DNA of 42,782 bases from a virus. The position numbers and the translations under genes were made by a program. A model generated the notes under the pieces. The model saw nothing but the letters and a program-made list of their open reading frames with translations, did no database searches and had not been told where the DNA came from. The stretch lies in IMG/VR virus record IMGVR_UViG_3300035670_000458, positions 1-42,782 of that record; one strand, 5' to 3'. Below are positions 1-42,782 of the stretch, piece after piece (the stretch's first letter is position 1; each line of letters begins with the position of its first letter).

Positions 1-849
1 ATCTTCAGCGAAACCTTTTTCTATAATTTTAGCAGGATTAATACCCAATCTTTCAACTTGAGCTTCAGCACCTCCCACAACGGAACCATACAATCCGGCC
101 TGAGTAGGAGAGTATCCTTGGTCAAGTTTTTCTTGAGCAGACCTGCCGGCTGCCAAAGTTCCAAACCCCGCCAATCCGGCAGGAGTAAAAGCTATCAAAG
201 AGGACCCTATACCTTTTGATACATCTTCAGCAACTTTCCCGACAAAAGGCTTTTGTTCATATAGTTCCTGATTCCTCTGTTCATACCCCTGATAATAAGG
301 ATTTTCATCAATAAGATTTTCATTCTCCGACGGATAAACCCCCGTTATTTTCTGCCTTATATCCCGCATACCGGGAGAACGATAAAAAGTATTAGCGATA
401 CCCCTAACACCCTCATTAACCATCTGCCTGACTCCCTCTTTAACATCATCTAAGAAAGGAGTTTTATTTTCAGCGGCAGCTTGCCCCTTTTTAAATAATT
501 TCTGTTTAGCAGAAGGCGGCTCTTCAGCGAGAATCTTTTTATACCAAGGCAAATTTTTATAATACTCCTCATAAGGTATGATCTCACCCGAAGCAAACGG
601 ATACGGATTTGAATTCCCGGTCAAAGCAGATTCATTTGTCGTCGGCATAGCTGAAGCTTGCTGCCTGTACAATTCCTCTTCCTGCTGCCTAAATGCCCGA
701 GAAGCCTGCTTATTTTTTTTAAGTAACGGACTTTCCTCCATTTCAAAAACAAAATCATCCCAAGTTTTTATTTTATTTTCGAAAGAATTACCGGTTGAAT
801 TTTCTTTATTGCCTGCCTCTAAAACATAGTCATTCCAACTTTTGCTCAT
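1..849 (-). CDS. Giant polyvalent virion protein, N-terminal part (runs off window start)
   Basis: The frame opens with ATG at 849 behind a GGCGGTGA ribosome site and stays open for 283 codons to base 1. It begins 22 bases after the stop of the upstream late gene. The N-terminus is hydrophilic and Gln/Glu-rich; an E-S-P-L motif sits near residue 41. From about residue 215 it becomes glycine/alanine-rich and probably membrane-interacting. The last residues lead smoothly into the frame at the other window end (36919-42782): helices followed by a G-K-K-N-I-G-N-M segment and an EALEEM helix, a pattern familiar from large phage internal proteins. I infer that this is the first eighth of a protein of about 2,240 residues carried in the capsid and ejected with DNA. 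No enzymatic motif is visible in this part. Confidence 0.8.
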   Translation of the reverse strand, partial: MSKSWNDYVLEAGNKENSTGNSFENKIKTWDDFVFEMEESPLLKKNKQASRAFRQQEEELYRQQASAMPTTNESALTGNSNPYPFASGEIIPYEEYYKNLPWYKKILAEEPPSAKQKLFKKGQAAAENKTPFLDDVKEGVRQMVNEGVRGIANTFYRSPGMRDIRQKITGVYPSENENLIDENPYYQGYEQRNQELYEQKPFVGKVAEDVSKGIGSSLIAFTPAGLAGFGTLAAGRSAQEKLDQGYSPTQAGLYGSVVGGAEAQVERLGINPAKIIEKGFAED

Positions 850-20047: not shown

Positions 20048-20075
20048 ATACACACTTACACGAACAAAGTGAGAG

Positions 20076-20339
20076 GGTGTCAAAAAAAATATTTATATAT
20101 TTATATATGTGTTTTTTGACACCTATTTTGACACCTGTTAAAAAACGAAAAACATGTTTTTTGATACCCATTTGACACCCTGACTGTCAAATGCGTTTTT
20201 TGACACCCTCAAATAACATAAATTGTGTTTTTTGACACCTATTTTGACACCTGTTAAAATTTCGTTACCTGTCAAAAAATCAAATTTGACACCTGTCATT
20301 TTTTTAAGTGTCAATGTCATTTTCTTGTTTTTTGACACC
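20076..20339. repeat. Iteron array (TTTGACACC), probable replication origin
   Basis: The 9-mer TTTGACACC occurs in the same orientation at 20115, 20127, 20171, 20199, 20231, 20243, 20285 and 20331; a one-base variant lies at 20160 and an inverted copy at 20076-20084. A 36-bp block with two iterons is repeated exactly at 20108-20143 and 20224-20259. An AT-only stretch (about 20083-20106) could be the unwinding element. The array lies just downstream of the primase-helicase gene and runs into its last codons. It accounts for the gene-free stretch 19945-20303. Confidence 0.8.
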
Positions 20340-33605: not shown

Positions 33606-33681
33606 TGAATAGTACTATAACAACGTTTGCGACTAATGCAAACATAATATTATAATTTCAGAACCGTTTCAAGCCTTTTTT

Positions 33682-33733
33682 CGACAAAATTTTCCGACAA
33701 ATTACGACAACAAGATTCGACAAATTACGACAA
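33682..33733. promoter_or_regulatory. CGACAA direct-repeat cluster upstream of the TPR gene
   Basis: CGACAA occurs at 33682, 33695, 33705, 33718 and 33728, with spacing 13, 10, 13, 10. A 16-bp block is thus duplicated exactly (33695-33710 and 33718-33733). It ends about 70 bases before the TPR start. Probably an array of protein-binding sites. Confidence 0.75.
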
Positions 33734-33803
33734 AACATTGCCGGAAACAACAGGTTGATTTTTTACAAACATTGTGTATTCTTGAAGTGAGGAGGTGTTT
33801 AAT

Positions 33804-34505
33804 ATGCAGATAAAAAAGATTTTAGCGTTAATATCAGTTCCCGCAACTTTTACTCAAATGCAGAGACATTGTTTTTGTTTAGAAGCGACCTCCAGCTCAG
33901 GCATTGAAATTGAAATTTTAAAGAATAAGCTCGATTCATCTTTAACTTGGTTGAATGTAATAATGACCTCAGGAAGCTTTTTACTCTCCGTTGTCGGAAT
34001 TCTTTTGGCCTTAATTGGTTTCATCAATTTGACCAAAGCACATAAAATTGTAGACAAAAGGATTAAAGGGAAATTGGAAGAACTTAAACTCCATTTTGCG
34101 GATGAATTTTCAAAAGTGCAGGAAGCCACCCAAAAGATGATCGCCGGCTACACTTGCCAAACTCAAGGGGATGTTGACAGAGCAATCGAATTATACACAT
34201 CCGCCGTAAAAATTTTTCCGCAAGTTTTTAACGGATATACATCATTAGGATATGCGTACCATCAAAAACAAAACTATCCGTCAGCCTTGTTAGCTTTTAA
34301 CAAAGCTGCGGAACTTTTCCCTAAAAGAATCGAAAGTTATAACGATTTGGCCAGAATATATGCTCTTCTGAACAACAAGGCCGAATGTGTTAAGAATATA
34401 AAGAAAATGGCAGCTATAGACGTTAATTCAAAAGGATTTATAATAAACGACAACACCCTAACATCTTTGCTGACAATGATTGAGATAGATGATTTATATA
34501 GTTAA
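33804..34505 (+). CDS. Membrane-anchored TPR protein (lysogeny-region cargo)
   Basis: 233 aa from ATG at 33804 behind GGAGG; the GTG at 33795 lies on the site. Residues 1-25 may be a weak signal-like segment. Residues about 52-75 are a transmembrane helix (F-L-L-S-V-V-G-I-L-L-A-L-I-G-F). A basic coiled region follows, and from about residue 125 come at least two TPR units (A-I-E-L-Y-T-S-A-V-K-I-F-P, A-L-L-A-F-N-K-A-A-E-L-F-P). It directly precedes the recombinase gene, whose ribosome site overlaps this stop. Expressed from the prophage, it might act in exclusion or sensing; this is inference. Confidence 0.75.
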   Translation: MQIKKILALISVPATFTQMQRHCFCLEATSSSGIEIEILKNKLDSSLTWLNVIMTSGSFLLSVVGILLALIGFINLTKAHKIVDKRIKGKLEELKLHFADEFSKVQEATQKMIAGYTCQTQGDVDRAIELYTSAVKIFPQVFNGYTSLGYAYHQKQNYPSALLAFNKAAELFPKRIESYNDLARIYALLNNKAECVKNIKKMAAIDVNSKGFIINDNTLTSLLTMIEIDDLYS

Positions 34506-34515
34506 AGGAGATTAT

Positions 34516-36051
34516 ATGAAAGCGGCAATATATGCAAGATACTCAAGCGACAATCAAAGAGAAGAATCCATCGAAGCCCAAATAAGAGCAATACAAGAAT
34601 ACAGTCAACGCAATCAAATACACATAGTTAAAATTTACACTGATGAAGCCAAGTCAGCTACTACAGACAACAGGCCTCAGTTTTTGCGAATGGTTAATGA
34701 TAGCAAACTCGGTCTTTTTGAGGCCGCTATTGTACATAAACTTGACAGGTTTGCCCGTAACCGTTATGACTCTGCACACTATAAAAAAATGCTTAAAGAT
34801 AACGGAGTAAAGCTTATATCCGTGTTAGAAAATCTTGATGATTCTCCCGAATCTATTATTTTGGAAAGTATGTTACAGGGGATGGCCGAATACTATTCCG
34901 CAAACTTGTCTCGTGAGGTCATGAAAGGGATGCGGGAAACTGCATATAAGGGAAAACACAACGGTGGAATTCCGCCCTTAGGATACGGGATTAATCTCGA
35001 CAAAACTTATCATATCATAGAAAACGAAGCTAAGACAGTTAGCATCATTTTTGAGCGTTTTTTATTGGGGCAGGGTTATCAATCTATCGCTAACGAATTA
35101 AACGGGTCAGGAAAAACAACCAAGCAGGGGAAACAATTTAAAAAGAATACAATTCGGGATATTCTCTTGAATGAAAAATACACCGGTACATATGTATTTA
35201 ATAGAAGAGCAGACGGGAAAACCTTAAACAAAATTAAGCCTGATGAGGAGATCATCCGGGTAGAAAACGCATTGCCGGCAATAATAACGAAAGAACAGTT
35301 CGAGAAGACTCAGAATCGTATAAACGGACAAAAAACAGGAAGGAGAATAAGAGTTATGCATTATTTATTAACAGGAAAATTATTTTGTGGGGAGTGCAAT
35401 AAACATTATACCGGAGCGGGACACGTAAAAGGCCGTGACAGGTCCGACGATAACCCGACAAAATATTACAGGTACGCATGCACAGGAAAAAAGGGAGGCT
35501 GTCAGAATAAGCCTGTTCGAAAAGAAACAATTGAAGACGCCGTGATAAATGAAATAAAAGATAAAATATTAAACGACGAGAAGATCCCGATGTGGGTTGA
35601 ACAGTTGCTGGAGAAAATTAAAGAATCCAAATCCGAAAATACAAACAGGATATCGGAAATTGGAAAAGAAATTACAAAGTTAAAAAATCAAATAGATAAG
35701 GATTTTCAGTTGTATTATGATGATTTAATGGATAAAACTATTCTCGCCGAAAAAGTAAATACAAAGAAAGAAAAAATTTCTTTGTTGGAAAACGAATTAA
35801 TAATCTTAAACACGAGAAACTATGCTCCAAATAAAGACATGATTATAGCATATTTGCATACTATGAAAAATAACCTTGAGTCCGGAGATGTGAACCGGCA
35901 ACAAAAGGTTATTGATACATTAGTACAATGCGTTGTCGTCTACCCTGACCGAATCGATATAGATATCGGAATAGACGATTCAGGGGACAGTGATAAGGGT
36001 ACTGGAGGCGAGCCACTCCTAACCCTATCACTGTCCATTTTAAGACCTTAA
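34516..36051 (+). CDS. int: Large serine recombinase (phage integrase)
   Basis: 511 aa from ATG at 34516 behind AAAGGAG. The resolvase domain (residues 1-150) has Y-A-R-Y-S with catalytic Ser10 and L-D-R-F-A-R-N-R (Arg78, Arg81). A recombinase domain follows, then a zinc ribbon (Cys291, Cys294, Cys322, Cys329) and a coiled coil (about 360-440). It joins attP to attB through a Ser-DNA link. The last codons pass through a 52-bp dyad (35985-36036), the likely attP, so the C-terminus (after about residue 490) looks unlike the rest. The stop overlaps the end of endolysin tail to tail. Confidence 0.9.
   Translation: MKAAIYARYSSDNQREESIEAQIRAIQEYSQRNQIHIVKIYTDEAKSATTDNRPQFLRMVNDSKLGLFEAAIVHKLDRFARNRYDSAHYKKMLKDNGVKLISVLENLDDSPESIILESMLQGMAEYYSANLSREVMKGMRETAYKGKHNGGIPPLGYGINLDKTYHIIENEAKTVSIIFERFLLGQGYQSIANELNGSGKTTKQGKQFKKNTIRDILLNEKYTGTYVFNRRADGKTLNKIKPDEEIIRVENALPAIITKEQFEKTQNRINGQKTGRRIRVMHYLLTGKLFCGECNKHYTGAGHVKGRDRSDDNPTKYYRYACTGKKGGCQNKPVRKETIEDAVINEIKDKILNDEKIPMWVEQLLEKIKESKSENTNRISEIGKEITKLKNQIDKDFQLYYDDLMDKTILAEKVNTKKEKISLLENELIILNTRNYAPNKDMIIAYLHTMKNNLESGDVNRQQKVIDTLVQCVVVYPDRIDIDIGIDDSGDSDKGTGGEPLLTLSLSILRP
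35985..36036. other. Candidate attP site for the serine recombinase
   Basis: An imperfect 52-bp dyad centred between 36010 and 36011. Outer arms GGACAGTGATA and TATCACTGTCC match perfectly (11 bp). Twenty of 26 half-site positions are symmetric overall. The central dinucleotide GA is non-palindromic, as needed to set direction. Size and layout match attP sites of large serine integrases. It overlaps the recombinase 3' end and lies between recombinase and endolysin. A terminator hairpin is the alternative; only ATTTT follows. Confidence 0.6.
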
Positions 36052-36656
36052 TTCACAATATTAGCCATGTTTAAAATCAATTTGCGAACATACTCACCTT
36101 TACACGTTTTTCCGTCCTGCGCATTTAACAACCAATACTCCGGAGAACTTACTACCTGCTTTTCACGCAGCACCTTGAGAGCGGCCATAAGCTTTTTGTC
36201 TCCTAAATTGATATCCGATAACACAGCACACATCGGAAAGAACTTACCGGGGCACTCGGTATTAACTAATTGAGAATGAGGCATAACAATAACTTTACCC
36301 GGGAATCGTTTCAAATGGAAATGAACCCGTTCCATCAAGGCATTATATTGTGCCGGAGGCATCCCGATTCGTGTTGAGTAATTACCTTCGCAGCATATTC
36401 CATAACTGCGGCTGTTGTACCCCTGACATTGCGCTCCTATGTTATCTCCTCTCATGATATACACATCACCGTTTTTTGCAATATATTCGTTGTAACCGGC
36501 ACAGTTCCACCCGTTAGCTTTGTGATCATCATTGCATTGTTCCCATGAATAATTATCAGCTTCCGCATGGTGGAGAATAAGATACTTAACAGCCGATAAA
36601 TCTAATGGAATTAAAGGTTTGGTAGGATTTAGTTTGTCCGTAATATTAAATATCAT
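36048..36656 (-). CDS. Endolysin, N-acetylmuramoyl-L-alanine amidase (Amidase_2)
   Basis: 202 aa, ATG at 36656 overlapping the holin stop by 4 bases. The catalytic domain spans residues about 20-150. Likely zinc ligands are His29 or His30 in L-I-L-H-H-A, His127 in M-P-H-S-Q, and Cys135 in E-C-P-G-K. It cuts the amide bond between N-acetylmuramic acid and L-alanine in peptidoglycan. The C-terminal 50 residues are a small helical region, possibly for wall binding. It follows the holin and ends the late operon. Confidence 0.9.
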   Translation of the reverse strand: MIFNITDKLNPTKPLIPLDLSAVKYLILHHAEADNYSWEQCNDDHKANGWNCAGYNEYIAKNGDVYIMRGDNIGAQCQGYNSRSYGICCEGNYSTRIGMPPAQYNALMERVHFHLKRFPGKVIVMPHSQLVNTECPGKFFPMCAVLSDINLGDKKLMAALKVLREKQVVSSPEYWLLNAQDGKTCKGEYVRKLILNMANIVN

Positions 36657-36918: not shown

Positions 36919-39900
36919 TCATTTTTTCATTTTCTTCTGTATATACTCTTTGATGATGTATTCCCTTGCTGTTTCATGAGATTTTTTTACGATATCACTT
37001 AAAATTTTAGCCTTAACCTCAAACTCATTATCGGTACCCGACAATTTTTTATACTCATCGGATGCAATAACCTTACCCGCCGTCTCCGTTAATAACTTCC
37101 CGCTAAGCTTCTGATAATTAATATACTGCTGCGCATCAAGCGTTAACGGATACGTAGTCCCCTGATAAGTCCACCGTATAACATCATCAGCAACGGCAGG
37201 CAGCACGTTAACATTATTCGTTTGAGCGAACACCTTCGAGATTTCCGTTTGCACAGGATTTTTTTCAACATCTTTCAGGAATAACGGATTAATCATAACA
37301 TTCACAACATTATTAGCATCGTCATAACGTTTAATTTTATCCCCGTAGACATCGACTTGTACCGGCAATGTTCTGCTAAACCCGGGTAACTTGCTTATGT
37401 ATTGTTTTACTATCTGCTTAACAGGATTCGGATCATACACCTCTCTTACATATTCATCCGATATATCAGATAATTGCCGGATAAATGTCGGTTCAGTTTG
37501 CCCGATTGCACTCCTAAACAATTTCGTTAAAGCAGTATTAACACTACCGTTAGACCCTCCGACAGAAGCTATAATATCAACAGCATTACGCATGAATGAC
37601 AATCTTACAAAAGTATTTCCTGCAGCGTCAAACCCTGCTCCGATGGAAGCTAAAAACCCCGCCTTGTCTTTCGACTTTTTGTAAGCATCAACACCCATAG
37701 CCAGAACTCCACCTATCGGTTGTAAAGAATCAAAACTATACCATTTCCCGCCTATTTTAATCGAATAAGCTTGACTTGTGGCTTTTTCATGCTGCCTGAC
37801 CCGTTCCCGTTTATCCTCTCCACCTGCAGCCAGCCCTAAAGCCGCTAACACACCTCCAAGCAAAGCAATTCCCGTTCCGGTCAAACTCCTTGCAAGCCTG
37901 TCAACAAACACCTTTTGGTCAAACTCGCCCTCAGCGATTTTCTTTATTCTCCTGTTATTACTAAGCTTCCCGAGTTCGGACAAAGCTTTTCCCATGCCGA
38001 CCGGAGTATAATCCAACAACTTGTCAAACACATTAGCCGGAGTTTGAGTAAACGGAACAACTATATCACCGACAATACCCGCAGCATCTTTAATTTTTGT
38101 CAATCTCTTAGCAAGCTCGCTGTTATTCTGAAATACCCTATCCATAGCATACAACTTGGCAAGCATATCGACATCGGCATCAGGCTTATTCAATCCCCTA
38201 ATTTTCATCAATTCCTTAAGCCGCATATTATAAGCAGCTTCAAAAAATGGCCTGTCCCCAAACTTCAGAAAAGTTTTAACGGCATTATCCAAAAAATTTA
38301 AAGTGTCGTTGTCAAATACTCGCCCTTTCCTCAATTCGTATCTTCCGCCCGTAATACTCACAAGCTGATTTTTACCAAGGTCATATCTTTCATTCATGTT
38401 TGCAGTATTAACCAACTGAAATGTCTTCAGGTTTTTCACAATCTCTTTCCAAGACATCTGACGATTAAATTGTTTCTCAAAAGAATACTGCAGGTCCAAA
38501 ACACTTTCTTTAACCCCCGTCTTCAACCCCTCAGCCTGCCACTTAGCTTTTTCAACCGGATTAAACAAAGTAGTCCTTTCGCTCCCCCTTATTTTACTCA
38601 GAAAAGCATCAATCGGAGCTCCAAACAGATCCTTTAAATTTTCGGTTGAATTCAAAATAACGTTCCCTGCAATATTCCGAATATTAGTTTTAGGGTTTAA
38701 TAGCAGCCAAATTCTCTGAAGCCCCTTAATCTTATCCCTAACATTAGCAGGAACCTTATTTGACATGATCAGCTCAATCTTATCCGTAAGCATCCGATAT
38801 AAATAACTGTCCGGTTGTAGCAGATTTCTAGCTTCAACAGCTTTAATAATCGCCTCAATATCTTCATTTTCCAAAACAGGCAAATTATTTTTTTGCTTAA
38901 TAATATCCCTGATAGCCGGGATTGAATAAGCATCAAGATTAATCAATTCCATAACCTTATCAACCATTCGTTTCCTTACCTTAGGACTTGCAGCCTTGAG
39001 CATACCCTTTAATATTCGTTCTCTCGCTAAAGTTGCTTGCTCATCAAATACTTTTTTTGCAATCGTAGCCACCTTTTCAGCATCCGCCTGACTGATATTA
39101 ATCTTATCCTTAAGAGCTGCAATAAAAGCATCCCTCACAAATTCCGTCTTATTTTTCCCAAGTTTGACCAACTCATGTATTCTTATACCTGCAGTTCTTA
39201 TCAAGGTCCTTATCTTCGGGTCCAACTTATCATTAACCCGGTTAGAATAATTCTGATTAAGAAAAATATCCGCATTAACAACCGAGTCAATAAATTTAAC
39301 TGCATTAGCTTCCCTGTCAGCAGCAGAAGCAGGCCGCACCCTATACACCTGCTCCAAATAGTTTTCGGCATATTCTTTTTTCCACGTCTTGAACTTATTA
39401 TCCACATAGTTAGCCAAAACATTAATCTCATCATCCGTAAACTCTTGAAGCTTTGCCTCGGCCTTCAAAAACTCGACAATATTAACTCTTTGCTGTGCCC
39501 CCGTAGCATAATAATTTTTCACCATATCCGAAAGCTTATAATCAAGCTTCTTCATAACCTTCTTAATTGCAATATCCGCAGTTTTTTCGGAAAATGGCGG
39601 CTTAGTCCCCTTACCAAAATACTCTTCCAAAATATCAAGAGCGAAAGTATCATCCGAATAAAATTCCCTAACTATCTTCTTTGCCTCCTGCCAAACCTTA
39701 TCAGACACATCTTTATTTTTTACCGCATCAAGAAACTCTTGGATCTTATCAGGAGGTATCTTTTTAGGAATGTCCTTCTCATCAACTTGTTCCCTAAACT
39801 TAGCATACAATTCATTGACCATCTGCATTACAACATCTTTTTCTTTTGCTTTTGGGCCTTTCAAAGTCTTCTTAATTTTTTCAGCAAGCAGCTCAGCAGG

Positions 39901-42782
39901 ATCGGCTTCTTCATCCTCTTCTACTTCTTCTAAATTTTCGTCAACTTCTTCATCCGTGGCAGCATCGTTGGCTTCAGATTGATTCCCGGTTTTTTTACTC
40001 GAAGTCTTTCTTTTTTTCTTTTCTCTATTTTCTTGAGTCTCTTCTTCCTTCTTAATCTCATCAACCGTCTCATCGGCCGCCTTTTTATCGGTTTCCTCAA
40101 GCACCTTCTCGACGACTTTAGCCTCATTGTCGATTTCTTCAATCATCTTTGGATGAGCTTTCTTAGTTTCCTCTTCAACATCATTAACAATTTTTTGAGC
40201 CTCAATAATAATCTGCTCAGGCGACCTCGAATACTTTGCTAAAGCTTGAATAGCTCTTCCCATGTCAGTAAAATTATCCCTTCGAATTATTGATGTCCAT
40301 TCAATCATTTTAGAATAATCGCCTGTTTTCCTGCCTTCCTGCTTATAAACTTCCAGTATACCCATAGCAACGTCAGTATCGACGCCCGTTTTAATACCAT
40401 TTTTCCTGATATTCTCAACTTCCCCGTCAAAATCTTTAGAAAGTCTTTTTACAGCTTCCGTATAGCTTTTCTCTTCCGAAACCCTGTCATACACATAATC
40501 TTCGGCATTAAACATTTTCTTTTCTTCATCCGTCAAATCCTTATGATTCTGCAAAGTATTCTCATAAAACTTAGATATAGCCTTAAGCCTGTTAAGTTTC
40601 TTCTCAGCCTCCGCAAAAAGCTGCAGATTGACCTTTATACCTTTACGCTTTTTATCCCTCATAAAAGACACCATATCCTCCAGCTCATCAATGGTGTTTG
40701 GCAGTTGATCACGACTTTTAATATTAGTAAATTTTGTTATATTGGAGTAAAATTTTTGAGCAACGAGCCTAAATTTATTTACTGTATCATCGTCTAACAC
40801 TTGATTTATTTCTATTGAATTATCAAAGTTTTTAATAGCAAGCATCATATTTGCAAACTCATTTGCTAATAACTCATCAACAACCGTAATGTCTGTTTCT
40901 TTAAGATATACTTTATAATCTTCATCTTCAAACGATTTTACAAAATCATCTTTAGCCTTTAAAAACTCGGGAGTTTTGATAAAATCATTATAAAAATAAT
41001 CAAAGGTATCAAAAAACAATTCCTTATTTGTTTTTCTCAAATAATGGAATGTTTCATGGTGATAAGCTGTGGTTTGGCCGTATTCAGTTTTATTCCCGAT
41101 AAATATTTCAAAAGGAGCTTCCGAAGATGTCAAAGCTGAAATATTAAAGCCTGTATTGTCAAAAAAGTTTACAGGAGCTCCGACAGTTCTTTCCGAATCT
41201 TCTCTAATTCTTCTTTCGTCGACCGTTCTCTCATCTCTTGTAGAGATTTTTCTAATTGCGGCTTCTTCTTCATAAGCTCTTCGTTTGAAAATTTCCTTTT
41301 TGTTTCGGCTGATTCTTCCGGCGTTTGTGGTCTCAAGCCCTGATTCTTGAATAACATTTTCATTCACCTCACCACTCGAAGTTTTTTCAACATTACTATT
41401 ATCGGACAAATTACCGGCTTTTTCAATGGCATTATTTGACTTATCATAAATAATCGAAACCTTAACATCCGTAGCCTGAGATTTACCTCCTATTTTTTCA
41501 ACTTTCAGTATTCTCGTAACATCATTAATTGAAGATGGTGTTTTGGTCTTATAAAAACTTTTGGTCCTGTCAGTGCCTTCTTCGACTGTTCTTTCAAAAG
41601 GATTCTCAGGATTATTTTGTACTTCGATGATATACCCGACATCAGATTTACTTTTAAACAGATAAGTTTTAGCTATTTCACGGCCAAACCATGCCGGCAT
41701 TTTACTTTTTGTTTTTACGACTCCCGAATCAAATATATCTTGGATAGCAGCAAAATCTTTCACGGCTCTGTAATAGTGGCCATCCTTTTTTTCGCCCAAT
41801 TGGTCCATAACAGGGCTATAACTCGAAGACAGATTAATCGTTTTTGTATAGCTTTTACCTTCAGTTTGGGCCTTATTTATTTGAGATTCAGGTGTATTTT
41901 GCGTTTGAGCAAGTTGGCCTTCTTGTACTTGAGACAAATTTAAAGGCGATTCTGTAACAAAATTACCTATTTTATTAATCTCATTTTGATTATTGCTAAC
42001 AATATTCCCCGTTTCAGATAATGCAGATTCATTTGGCACAGTGTTTACAATCATATTCCCAACATCACGAAATTGACTTATATCCTGCATTTGCGGTTGT
42101 TGTGGTTGTATTGTTTGTTGTTCTTGTTGTGTTTGCAACGGTGATTCCGTAATAACTTTAGCCATCCCGCTTTTACCCTGCAAAGCTTCTTTATACGGGA
42201 AAACATTACTTAAACTATTTTCTAATTCCATAACATTTAAGGGTGACTCCTGAATACCCCCGCTAATATTTTCTTGTGCATTCCCCAATATACTTTCCTG
42301 AATACCCCCCTGCTGTTGCTCTTGATTATTAACCTTAGGTATCTCATTTTTTAAATTTTTCAGCAACTCATTATACTGCCCGAAAGTAACTGATTCAGGG
42401 TTTTGAGCATATTCCAATGCCAATTGAAAAGACTCGGTTTGTTCCGGCATATTCAACCCGACTTTAAGGTCCTCATATAAATTATTTTCCATTTCCTGCT
42501 GAACTTGCTTCGATGCCTCATATTGTGAAGGTAATCCCGCTCCCCCCATAGCGACACCCGCCAAACCTCCGACTAATCCGCTGTAAAGAATTTGTTTTGG
42601 GTCGATAACGCCGCCTTCTCCAAACCATTTCCGATTTGTGTCAGCAATAAGCTTATCTGCTAATCCTGAAATCGGCTCCATAAGCATTTCTTCAAGAGCT
42701 TCCTGCCCGCCCACATTCAAAAGATTTTTTAACATATTCCCGATATTTTTTTTCCCCGCCAAGGTAAAAGTTTTAATAATAT
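36919..42782 (-). CDS. Giant polyvalent virion protein, main part, with zincin-like HExxH motif (runs off window end)
   Basis: The frame is open from 42782 to the stop at 36919, about 1,953 codons. TTG at 42762 is probably internal; 1-849 supplies the N-terminus. Numbering from 42762: Gln-rich linker with four E-S-P/I-L motifs (about 155-280); a small alpha/beta domain opening Y-Y-R-A-V (about 325-430), toxin- or ADP-ribosyltransferase-like; H-E-T-F-H at 569-573, a zincin-type metallopeptidase motif; N-L-Q-L-F-A-E at 712-718; acidic-basic linker (about 870-975); helical regions; and a C-terminal module (about 1340-1947) like the LPD38-type domains of phage polyvalent proteins, with a hydrophobic helix near 1625. 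Inferred to be packaged and ejected with DNA. Confidence 0.85.
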   Translation of the reverse strand, partial: IIKTFTLAGKKNIGNMLKNLLNVGGQEALEEMLMEPISGLADKLIADTNRKWFGEGGVIDPKQILYSGLVGGLAGVAMGGAGLPSQYEASKQVQQEMENNLYEDLKVGLNMPEQTESFQLALEYAQNPESVTFGQYNELLKNLKNEIPKVNNQEQQQGGIQESILGNAQENISGGIQESPLNVMELENSLSNVFPYKEALQGKSGMAKVITESPLQTQQEQQTIQPQQPQMQDISQFRDVGNMIVNTVPNESALSETGNIVSNNQNEINKIGNFVTESPLNLSQVQEGQLAQTQNTPESQINKAQTEGKSYTKTINLSSSYSPVMDQLGEKKDGHYYRAVKDFAAIQDIFDSGVVKTKSKMPAWFGREIAKTYLFKSKSDVGYIIEVQNNPENPFERTVEEGTDRTKSFYKTKTPSSINDVTRILKVEKIGGKSQATDVKVSIIYDKSNNAIEKAGNLSDNSNVEKTSSGEVNENVIQESGLETTNAGRISRNKKEIFKRRAYEEEAAIRKISTRDERTVDERRIREDSERTVGAPVNFFDNTGFNISALTSSEAPFEIFIGNKTEYGQTTAYHHETFHYLRKTNKELFFDTFDYFYNDFIKTPEFLKAKDDFVKSFEDEDYKVYLKETDITVVDELLANEFANMMLAIKNFDNSIEINQVLDDDTVNKFRLVAQKFYSNITKFTNIKSRDQLPNTIDELEDMVSFMRDKKRKGIKVNLQLFAEAEKKLNRLKAISKFYENTLQNHKDLTDEEKKMFNAEDYVYDRVSEEKSYTEAVKRLSKDFDGEVENIRKNGIKTGVDTDVAMGILEVYKQEGRKTGDYSKMIEWTSIIRRDNFTDMGRAIQALAKYSRSPEQIIIEAQKIVNDVEEETKKAHPKMIEEIDNEAKVVEKVLEETDKKAADETVDEIKKEEETQENREKKKRKTSSKKTGNQSEANDAATDEEVDENLEEVEEDEEADPAELLAEKIKKTLKGPKAKEKDVVMQMVNELYAKFREQVDEKDIPKKIPPDKIQEFLDAVKNKDVSDKVWQEAKKIVREFYSDDTFALDILEEYFGKGTKPPFSEKTADIAIKKVMKKLDYKLSDMVKNYYATGAQQRVNIVEFLKAEAKLQEFTDDEINVLANYVDNKFKTWKKEYAENYLEQVYRVRPASAADREANAVKFIDSVVNADIFLNQNYSNRVNDKLDPKIRTLIRTAGIRIHELVKLGKNKTEFVRDAFIAALKDKINISQADAEKVATIAKKVFDEQATLARERILKGMLKAASPKVRKRMVDKVMELINLDAYSIPAIRDIIKQKNNLPVLENEDIEAIIKAVEARNLLQPDSYLYRMLTDKIELIMSNKVPANVRDKIKGLQRIWLLLNPKTNIRNIAGNVILNSTENLKDLFGAPIDAFLSKIRGSERTTLFNPVEKAKWQAEGLKTGVKESVLDLQYSFEKQFNRQMSWKEIVKNLKTFQLVNTANMNERYDLGKNQLVSITGGRYELRKGRVFDNDTLNFLDNAVKTFLKFGDRPFFEAAYNMRLKELMKIRGLNKPDADVDMLAKLYAMDRVFQNNSELAKRLTKIKDAAGIVGDIVVPFTQTPANVFDKLLDYTPVGMGKALSELGKLSNNRRIKKIAEGEFDQKVFVDRLARSLTGTGIALLGGVLAALGLAAGGEDKRERVRQHEKATSQAYSIKIGGKWYSFDSLQPIGGVLAMGVDAYKKSKDKAGFLASIGAGFDAAGNTFVRLSFMRNAVDIIASVGGSNGSVNTALTKLFRSAIGQTEPTFIRQLSDISDEYVREVYDPNPVKQIVKQYISKLPGFSRTLPVQVDVYGDKIKRYDDANNVVNVMINPLFLKDVEKNPVQTEISKVFAQTNNVNVLPAVADDVIRWTYQGTTYPLTLDAQQYINYQKLSGKLLTETAGKVIASDEYKKLSGTDNEFEVKAKILSDIVKKSHETAREYIIKEYIQKKMKK

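Follow-up and report, generated by a model that had tools for sequence, protein, structure and literature searches.

A candidate attP inside the large serine recombinase gene of a phage and its predicted recombination with the 3' end of host ssrA

The 52-bp dyad at positions 35985-36036 of virus record IMGVR_UViG_3300035670_000458, the whole analyzed stretch of which (42,782 nucleotides) is referred to here as the window, is very probably the phage attachment site (attP) of the large serine recombinase (LSR) encoded at 34516-36051. We put at about 0.93 the probability that this site, located inside the gene of its own recombinase, recombines at a central GA with the 3' end of the host ssrA (tmRNA) gene, thereby inserting the phage. 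As judged from their genome sequences, relatives show the mapping of attL and attR, an empty attB, a 12-bp identity that ends at GA and read-through of the recombinase frame, and we infer that the host of the window phage would also be hit at ssrA.

Results

The dyad and its genomic setting

The window derives from a phage, with portal, terminase, primase and tail-spike families present, and no tRNA or tmRNA gene lies within it. The gene adjoining the dyad (34516-36051 in the free-form frame, plus strand, with an alternative start at 34489) encodes the catalytic, recombinase and zinc-ribbon domains of a large serine recombinase (Resolvase, Recombinase and Zn_ribbon_recom; PHROG integrase, E 3e-118). 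It is met by a convergent gene for an amidase-type endolysin (36048-36656, minus strand; Amidase_2 domain, E 5e-15), which would adjoin attR of the prophage. The site thus sits between recombinase and endolysin, just as a preceding sequence-only reading had proposed: the endolysin open reading frame ends at 36048 and the recombinase stop codon occupies 36049-36051. Repeated CGACAAATTACGACAA-like units at 33675-33740, upstream of the recombinase operon, are possibly regulator sites. Since large minus-strand open reading frames reach both ends of the window (1-848 and 36919-42782), the record may represent a circular or permuted genome whose ends fall within a single very long gene; the two frames do not join exactly.

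A repeat search of the window returned the inverted repeat 35985-36001/36020-36036. The left half of the dyad (GGACAGTGATAAGGGTACTGGAGGCG) and its right half (AGCCACTCCTAACCCTATCACTGTCC) meet at the axis, with G36010 on one side and A36011 on the other. Over the outer 11 bp the repeat is perfect, as had been claimed: the arm of the P half-site, GGACAGTGATA (35985-35995, plus strand), recurs in attL of a Clostridium bowmanii element (locus L007) and in the phage contig L087, each time 18 nt from TGGAGG, and the arm of the P' half-site, TATCACTGTCC (36026-36036, plus strand), recurs in the C. bowmanii attR. Our recount gives 19 symmetric positions out of 26 per half instead of the 20 stated earlier. 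A site of about 50 bp, built from two inverted half-sites around a non-palindromic central dinucleotide, is what large serine recombinases use as attP. The window contains no second 52-nt stretch with perfect 11-bp outer arms, the expectation being 0.017 per shuffled window (mean over 60 shuffled windows). If symmetric positions are counted without regard to the arms, an AT-rich stretch with its centre at 20099 reaches 20 and surpasses the 19 of the dyad; this AT-rich dyad (20073-20124, 20 of 26 positions symmetric) is situated between the primase region and the next genes.

The codon map places the dyad within the last 22 codons of the recombinase, in agreement with the sequence-only reading. 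The axis falls into a glutamate codon (36010-36012), which is followed by twelve codons, PLLTLSLSILRP (36013-36048, plus strand), and the stop. The earlier proposal put the codons replaced upon integration at some 13; those following the axis codon, which would give way to host-encoded ones, number twelve.

Half-sites of the dyad at opposite ends of an element in C. bowmanii

The recombinase of C. bowmanii DSM 14206 (L007) is 48% identical to the window LSR and belongs to an element with 65.7 kb between its two junctions, one of which is located at the 3' end of ssrA. At this ssrA-side junction (attL) GGACAGTGATATGGTTGGTGGAGGCGA is followed by GGGGTGTCGAACCCC, while at the far junction (attR), 65.7 kb off, TTGTTTATGTATGGTGGAGGCGA is followed by ACCGTACCTAACTATATCACTGTCCATTATAAG. 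The attP joined from the two, GGACAGTGATATGGTTGGTGGAGGCGAACCGTACCTAACTATATCACTGTCCATTATAAG, closely resembles its window counterpart, GGACAGTGATAAGGGTACTGGAGGCGAGCCACTCCTAACCCTATCACTGTCCATTTTAAG, around the same GA axis, and the identity between the attachment sites of C. bowmanii, 12 bp in length, stops directly after GA. A pattern search with the P half-site hit one of 391 Clostridia genomes, exactly at the C. bowmanii attL, and window positions 35960-36060 matched one of 291 genomes, exactly at the C. bowmanii attR (E 1.5e-6, covering window positions 36003-36053); neither search uses symmetry and both agree on the C. bowmanii ends. The half-sites are thus found parted at attL and attR in a relative, which bears out the description of the dyad as a strong attP candidate. 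The observation named beforehand as speaking against it, namely prophage ends of relatives mapping elsewhere, was looked for as well; the ends fell on the dyad instead. No attL or attR of the window phage itself was detected among the genomes searched. The C. bowmanii element was also considered as a prophage; it has few phage families among its large proteins and is therefore called an integrated element here.

The probable host target

The core TGGAGGCGAG (36003-36012, plus strand) equals the antisense 3' end of Clostridium ssrA and is common to ssrA ends, such that attP and attB are identical across the central dinucleotide. The identity of TGGAGGCGA in the dyad with the antisense ssrA terminus had gone unmentioned in the sequence-only reading. 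In three other genomes of the C. bowmanii genus the reconstructed attB is uninterrupted (95-98% identity); a terminator-like hairpin is located just downstream of ssrA in these genomes, and the same sequence was seen by eye at the far junction in C. bowmanii. Within this genus (G031-G046) the 3' end of ssrA is often split by elements with the same 12-bp overlap: in many genomes the site is divided into query pieces 1-34 and 23-113, overlapping in exactly TGGTGGAGGCGA. Since a close relative of the recombinase occurs in only one of the 13 split-site genomes searched, other elements use the same spot.

A recombinase profile search provided 80 genomic loci and 80 loci in viral contigs. In 41 of them, a few elements being present in two collections, the recombinase gene has its 3' end directly against, or overlapping with, that of a tmRNA (22) or tRNA gene (19) on the opposite strand, the tRNA targets being tRNA-Ala, -Leu, -Met, -Arg, -Gln, -Glu, -Gly and -Pro. 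In Moorella phage MCACPph1, too, the recombinase frame extends into apparent antisense ssrA. In Paenibacillus sp. NEAU-GSW1 (L202), three tandem attachment-like sites at about 958, 3206 and 5017 lie beside ssrA, some 2 kb apart and with P' arms resembling one another, suggestive of an accumulation of small elements.

The predicted crossover position across relatives

The best symmetry axis falls between GGCG and A in 17 of 26 intact or reconstructed attPs, the arm sequences of which differ between clades. In the reconstructed sites this symmetry is partly built in because the search for attR made use of it; the directly read free sites, i.e. those of the window, L003, L087, L113, L115, L125, L133, L136, L154 and L158, are without that bias. 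By a joint score of core and P' arm, attR was clear in L007, L008, L018, L027, L039, L043 and L089 and weaker in L035; by this score it was not found for the tRNA-targeting L020, L021, L023, L037 and L147, nor for L030, L040, L080 and L093. Two free phage contigs (L087 and L088) carry the same dyad inside the recombinase gene, and a DNA search of phage records gave no match. Apart from these two contigs, the viral pattern search gave only L169 and L171, which were judged to be chance matches, as were most of those from a scan of viral contigs for core plus P' pattern, in which L221, L240, L251, L258 and L269 proved useful. The axis found in 17 of the 26 attPs, together with the end of attL/attR identity right after GA, makes GA (36010-36011, plus strand), already suggested as the centre from the window alone, a well supported prediction for the crossover dinucleotide.

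Two C-termini for one recombinase

With attP inside the recombinase gene, integration would swap the C-terminus of the enzyme; the earlier statement that it differs between free and integrated states is a consequence of the geometry, and many integrated relatives show the difference. In these, as is predicted for the window, the recombinase frame crosses the attachment site and continues into the antisense strand of tmRNA or tRNA. In the relatives it closes after 2 to more than 50 residues; the common tail is GGGEGSRTPVRK..., the tail from antisense ssrA reading EGCRTPVRKP in C. bowmanii and EGSRTPVRK... in many others. Recombinases annotated or predicted to have ends such as GEGSRTPVRK... (for example L008, L017, L025, L101 and L126) terminate in antisense tmRNA or tRNA sequence, and database entries of this group thus carry host-encoded tails. 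A varying reading frame had been expected, as the mark of a meaningless tail; instead the frame through the core is mostly conserved, being identical for 69 of the 89 rows, a count that includes near-duplicates.

Several clades have a conserved free-form tail, as read directly in phages or from attR (EPYQTKVTINIEYYRHRTTA, EPYQSKITTDISGYRHKIYSR, EPYRMKCTISIEDYRHKR). In a clade using another frame the tail reappears, shifted by about ten residues towards the C-terminus (EPFKMRISIAIGDYRHQTK), and its motif EP[YF]..K.TI.I..YRH reaches past the P' arm. Third codon positions carry an excess of the differences in three of the four clades examined (15/14/40, 64/61/91 and 14/15/26 at positions 1/2/3, the pairs not being independent). 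An AlphaFold2 model of L125, of moderate confidence, ends in a beta-hairpin whose turn contains the axis and whose second strand, together with a short helix, is formed by the tail. Conservation of the free-form tail at the protein level thus holds for several relatives. For the window recombinase the evidence is weak: its tail is shorter, with a weak codon signal (17/8/16) and low confidence in the structure prediction, for which the L006 row, from the annotated phage collection, was left out of the alignment.

Discussion

Integration is proposed to start with recombinase dimers binding to the P and P' half-sites. The central GA would then recombine with the 3' end of host ssrA (attB, antisense TGGTGGAGGCGAGGGG...), resulting in insertion of the circular phage genome with the recombinase against ssrA at attL and the endolysin side at attR. 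The predicted attL of the window phage consists of GGACAGTGATAAGGGTACTGGAGGCGAG joined to ssrA, and attR of the 3' flank of ssrA joined to TGGAGGCGAGCCACTCCTAACCCTATCACTGTCC. The integrated recombinase would presumably end in an antisense-ssrA peptide in place of EPLLTLSLSILRP.

A dyad between convergent genes for a recombinase and an endolysin could be nothing but a bidirectional terminator, as had been envisaged before, and a strong hairpin is indeed predicted on both strands (about -30 kcal/mol, z -5 to -6). Intrinsic terminators combine a G+C-rich hairpin with a subsequent T-run, but such a run is lacking on either strand and a terminator scan does not call the dyad. Moreover, a mere terminator leaves unexplained why the halves occur at two ends of an element and why the centre is that of an ssrA end. 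We therefore reject this explanation as highly improbable; a secondary terminator role of the dyad may exist. If the dyad is an attP, its target in the window host could still be a tRNA gene or another locus. The use of several tRNA genes by related recombinases fits this assumption, and so does the window core at 36000-36012, GTACTGGAGGCGAG, which lacks the TGG (encoding the tmRNA CCA end in most relatives) in front of TGGAGG. It is nevertheless an unlikely alternative, because the attP closest in sequence, that of C. bowmanii, resides in ssrA and TGGAGGCGAG matches the ssrA end. With ssrA as the target, the missing TGG implies either a host ssrA without encoded CCA or loss of the CCA upon integration.

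We lean slightly towards regarding the exchange of C-termini as a passive by-product of a compact genome that leaves the enzyme unaffected: tails of integrated forms range from 2 to more than 50 residues, the window tail shows little codon signal and low predicted confidence, and McMurdie et al. (2011; PMC3146451) considered it unlikely that antisense ssrA codes for a functional part of the recombinase DsiB. Against this stand the recurrence of the tail motif past the P' arm with another frame and offset, the third-position excess and the predicted terminal beta-strand in L125. These features would suit a family of self-editing phage serine recombinases directed to tmRNA and tRNA genes, in which a gene cut in the hairpin turn exchanges a conserved beta-strand end for an antisense-tmRNA peptide, such that integrating and prophage enzymes differ. 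We regard this as a tentative and rather doubtful proposition, and a difference in activity between free and integrated enzyme is a hypothesis. As the site lies within its own gene, it becomes testable whether carrying out the reaction alters the serine integrase itself.

The attP/attB pair described here is base-precise and stands for a widespread group of serine recombinases using the ends of tmRNA and tRNA genes, which are candidate integration tools with a conserved target. A survey from 2015 (Islander; PMC4383910) knew only tyrosine integrases to target tRNA and tmRNA genes, whereas a serine precedent already existed in Dehalococcoides (McMurdie et al., 2011; PMC3146451). Passages of the latter work describe ssrA islands whose serine recombinase DsiB has the features predicted for the window LSR, namely a position next to attL, the use of ssrA for integration and a 3' end that overlaps attL and crosses the site into antisense ssrA, and consider DsiB perhaps fully functional only on the circle. 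Unlike the window, these are genomic islands, not phages; they also carry DsiA, a second recombinase of small size, and a CcrB-like integrase, and the same passages report neither an attP dyad nor a conserved free-form tail (PMC3146451).

The integrases of Bxb1, A118/LI and SPbeta are built like the window LSR and likewise use half-sites paired about a central dinucleotide; the best structural matches of the window LSR are SPbeta (YokA), Bxb1, phiC31 and LI structures. In Bxb1, A118/LI and SPbeta, attP is located beside the integrase gene and is not known to lie inside it, and ssrA is not known to be targeted. The counterpart with attP inside the integrase gene, IntP of Myxococcus phage Mx8, is a tyrosine integrase; site and phage are different from those of the window, where the enzyme is a serine recombinase. 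Passages on Mx8 describe a new C-terminus and altered recombination behaviour after integration (Tojo, 1996; PMC6070905), and Islander, citing Mx8 among the tyrosine integrases, notes that Mx8 and SSV integrases extend across attP (PMC4383910). By sequence, the window LSR shares with IntP an attP within the reading frame and, as the antisense tails of relatives indicate, C-terminal residues that would be renewed on integration. In mycobacteriophage BPs, attP also lies inside a coding gene and the C-terminus depends on integration, but according to passages on its integration-dependent immunity the edited gene is the repressor (PMC4557955), while here it is the integrase. The literature searched, with its incomplete coverage, yielded no report of a phage LSR gene containing a defined attP dyad and none of conservation in a free-form tail. 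In view of DsiB and Mx8 our finding is a variation on known themes; the defined attP, the position of the crossover and the conserved free-form tail are what it adds.
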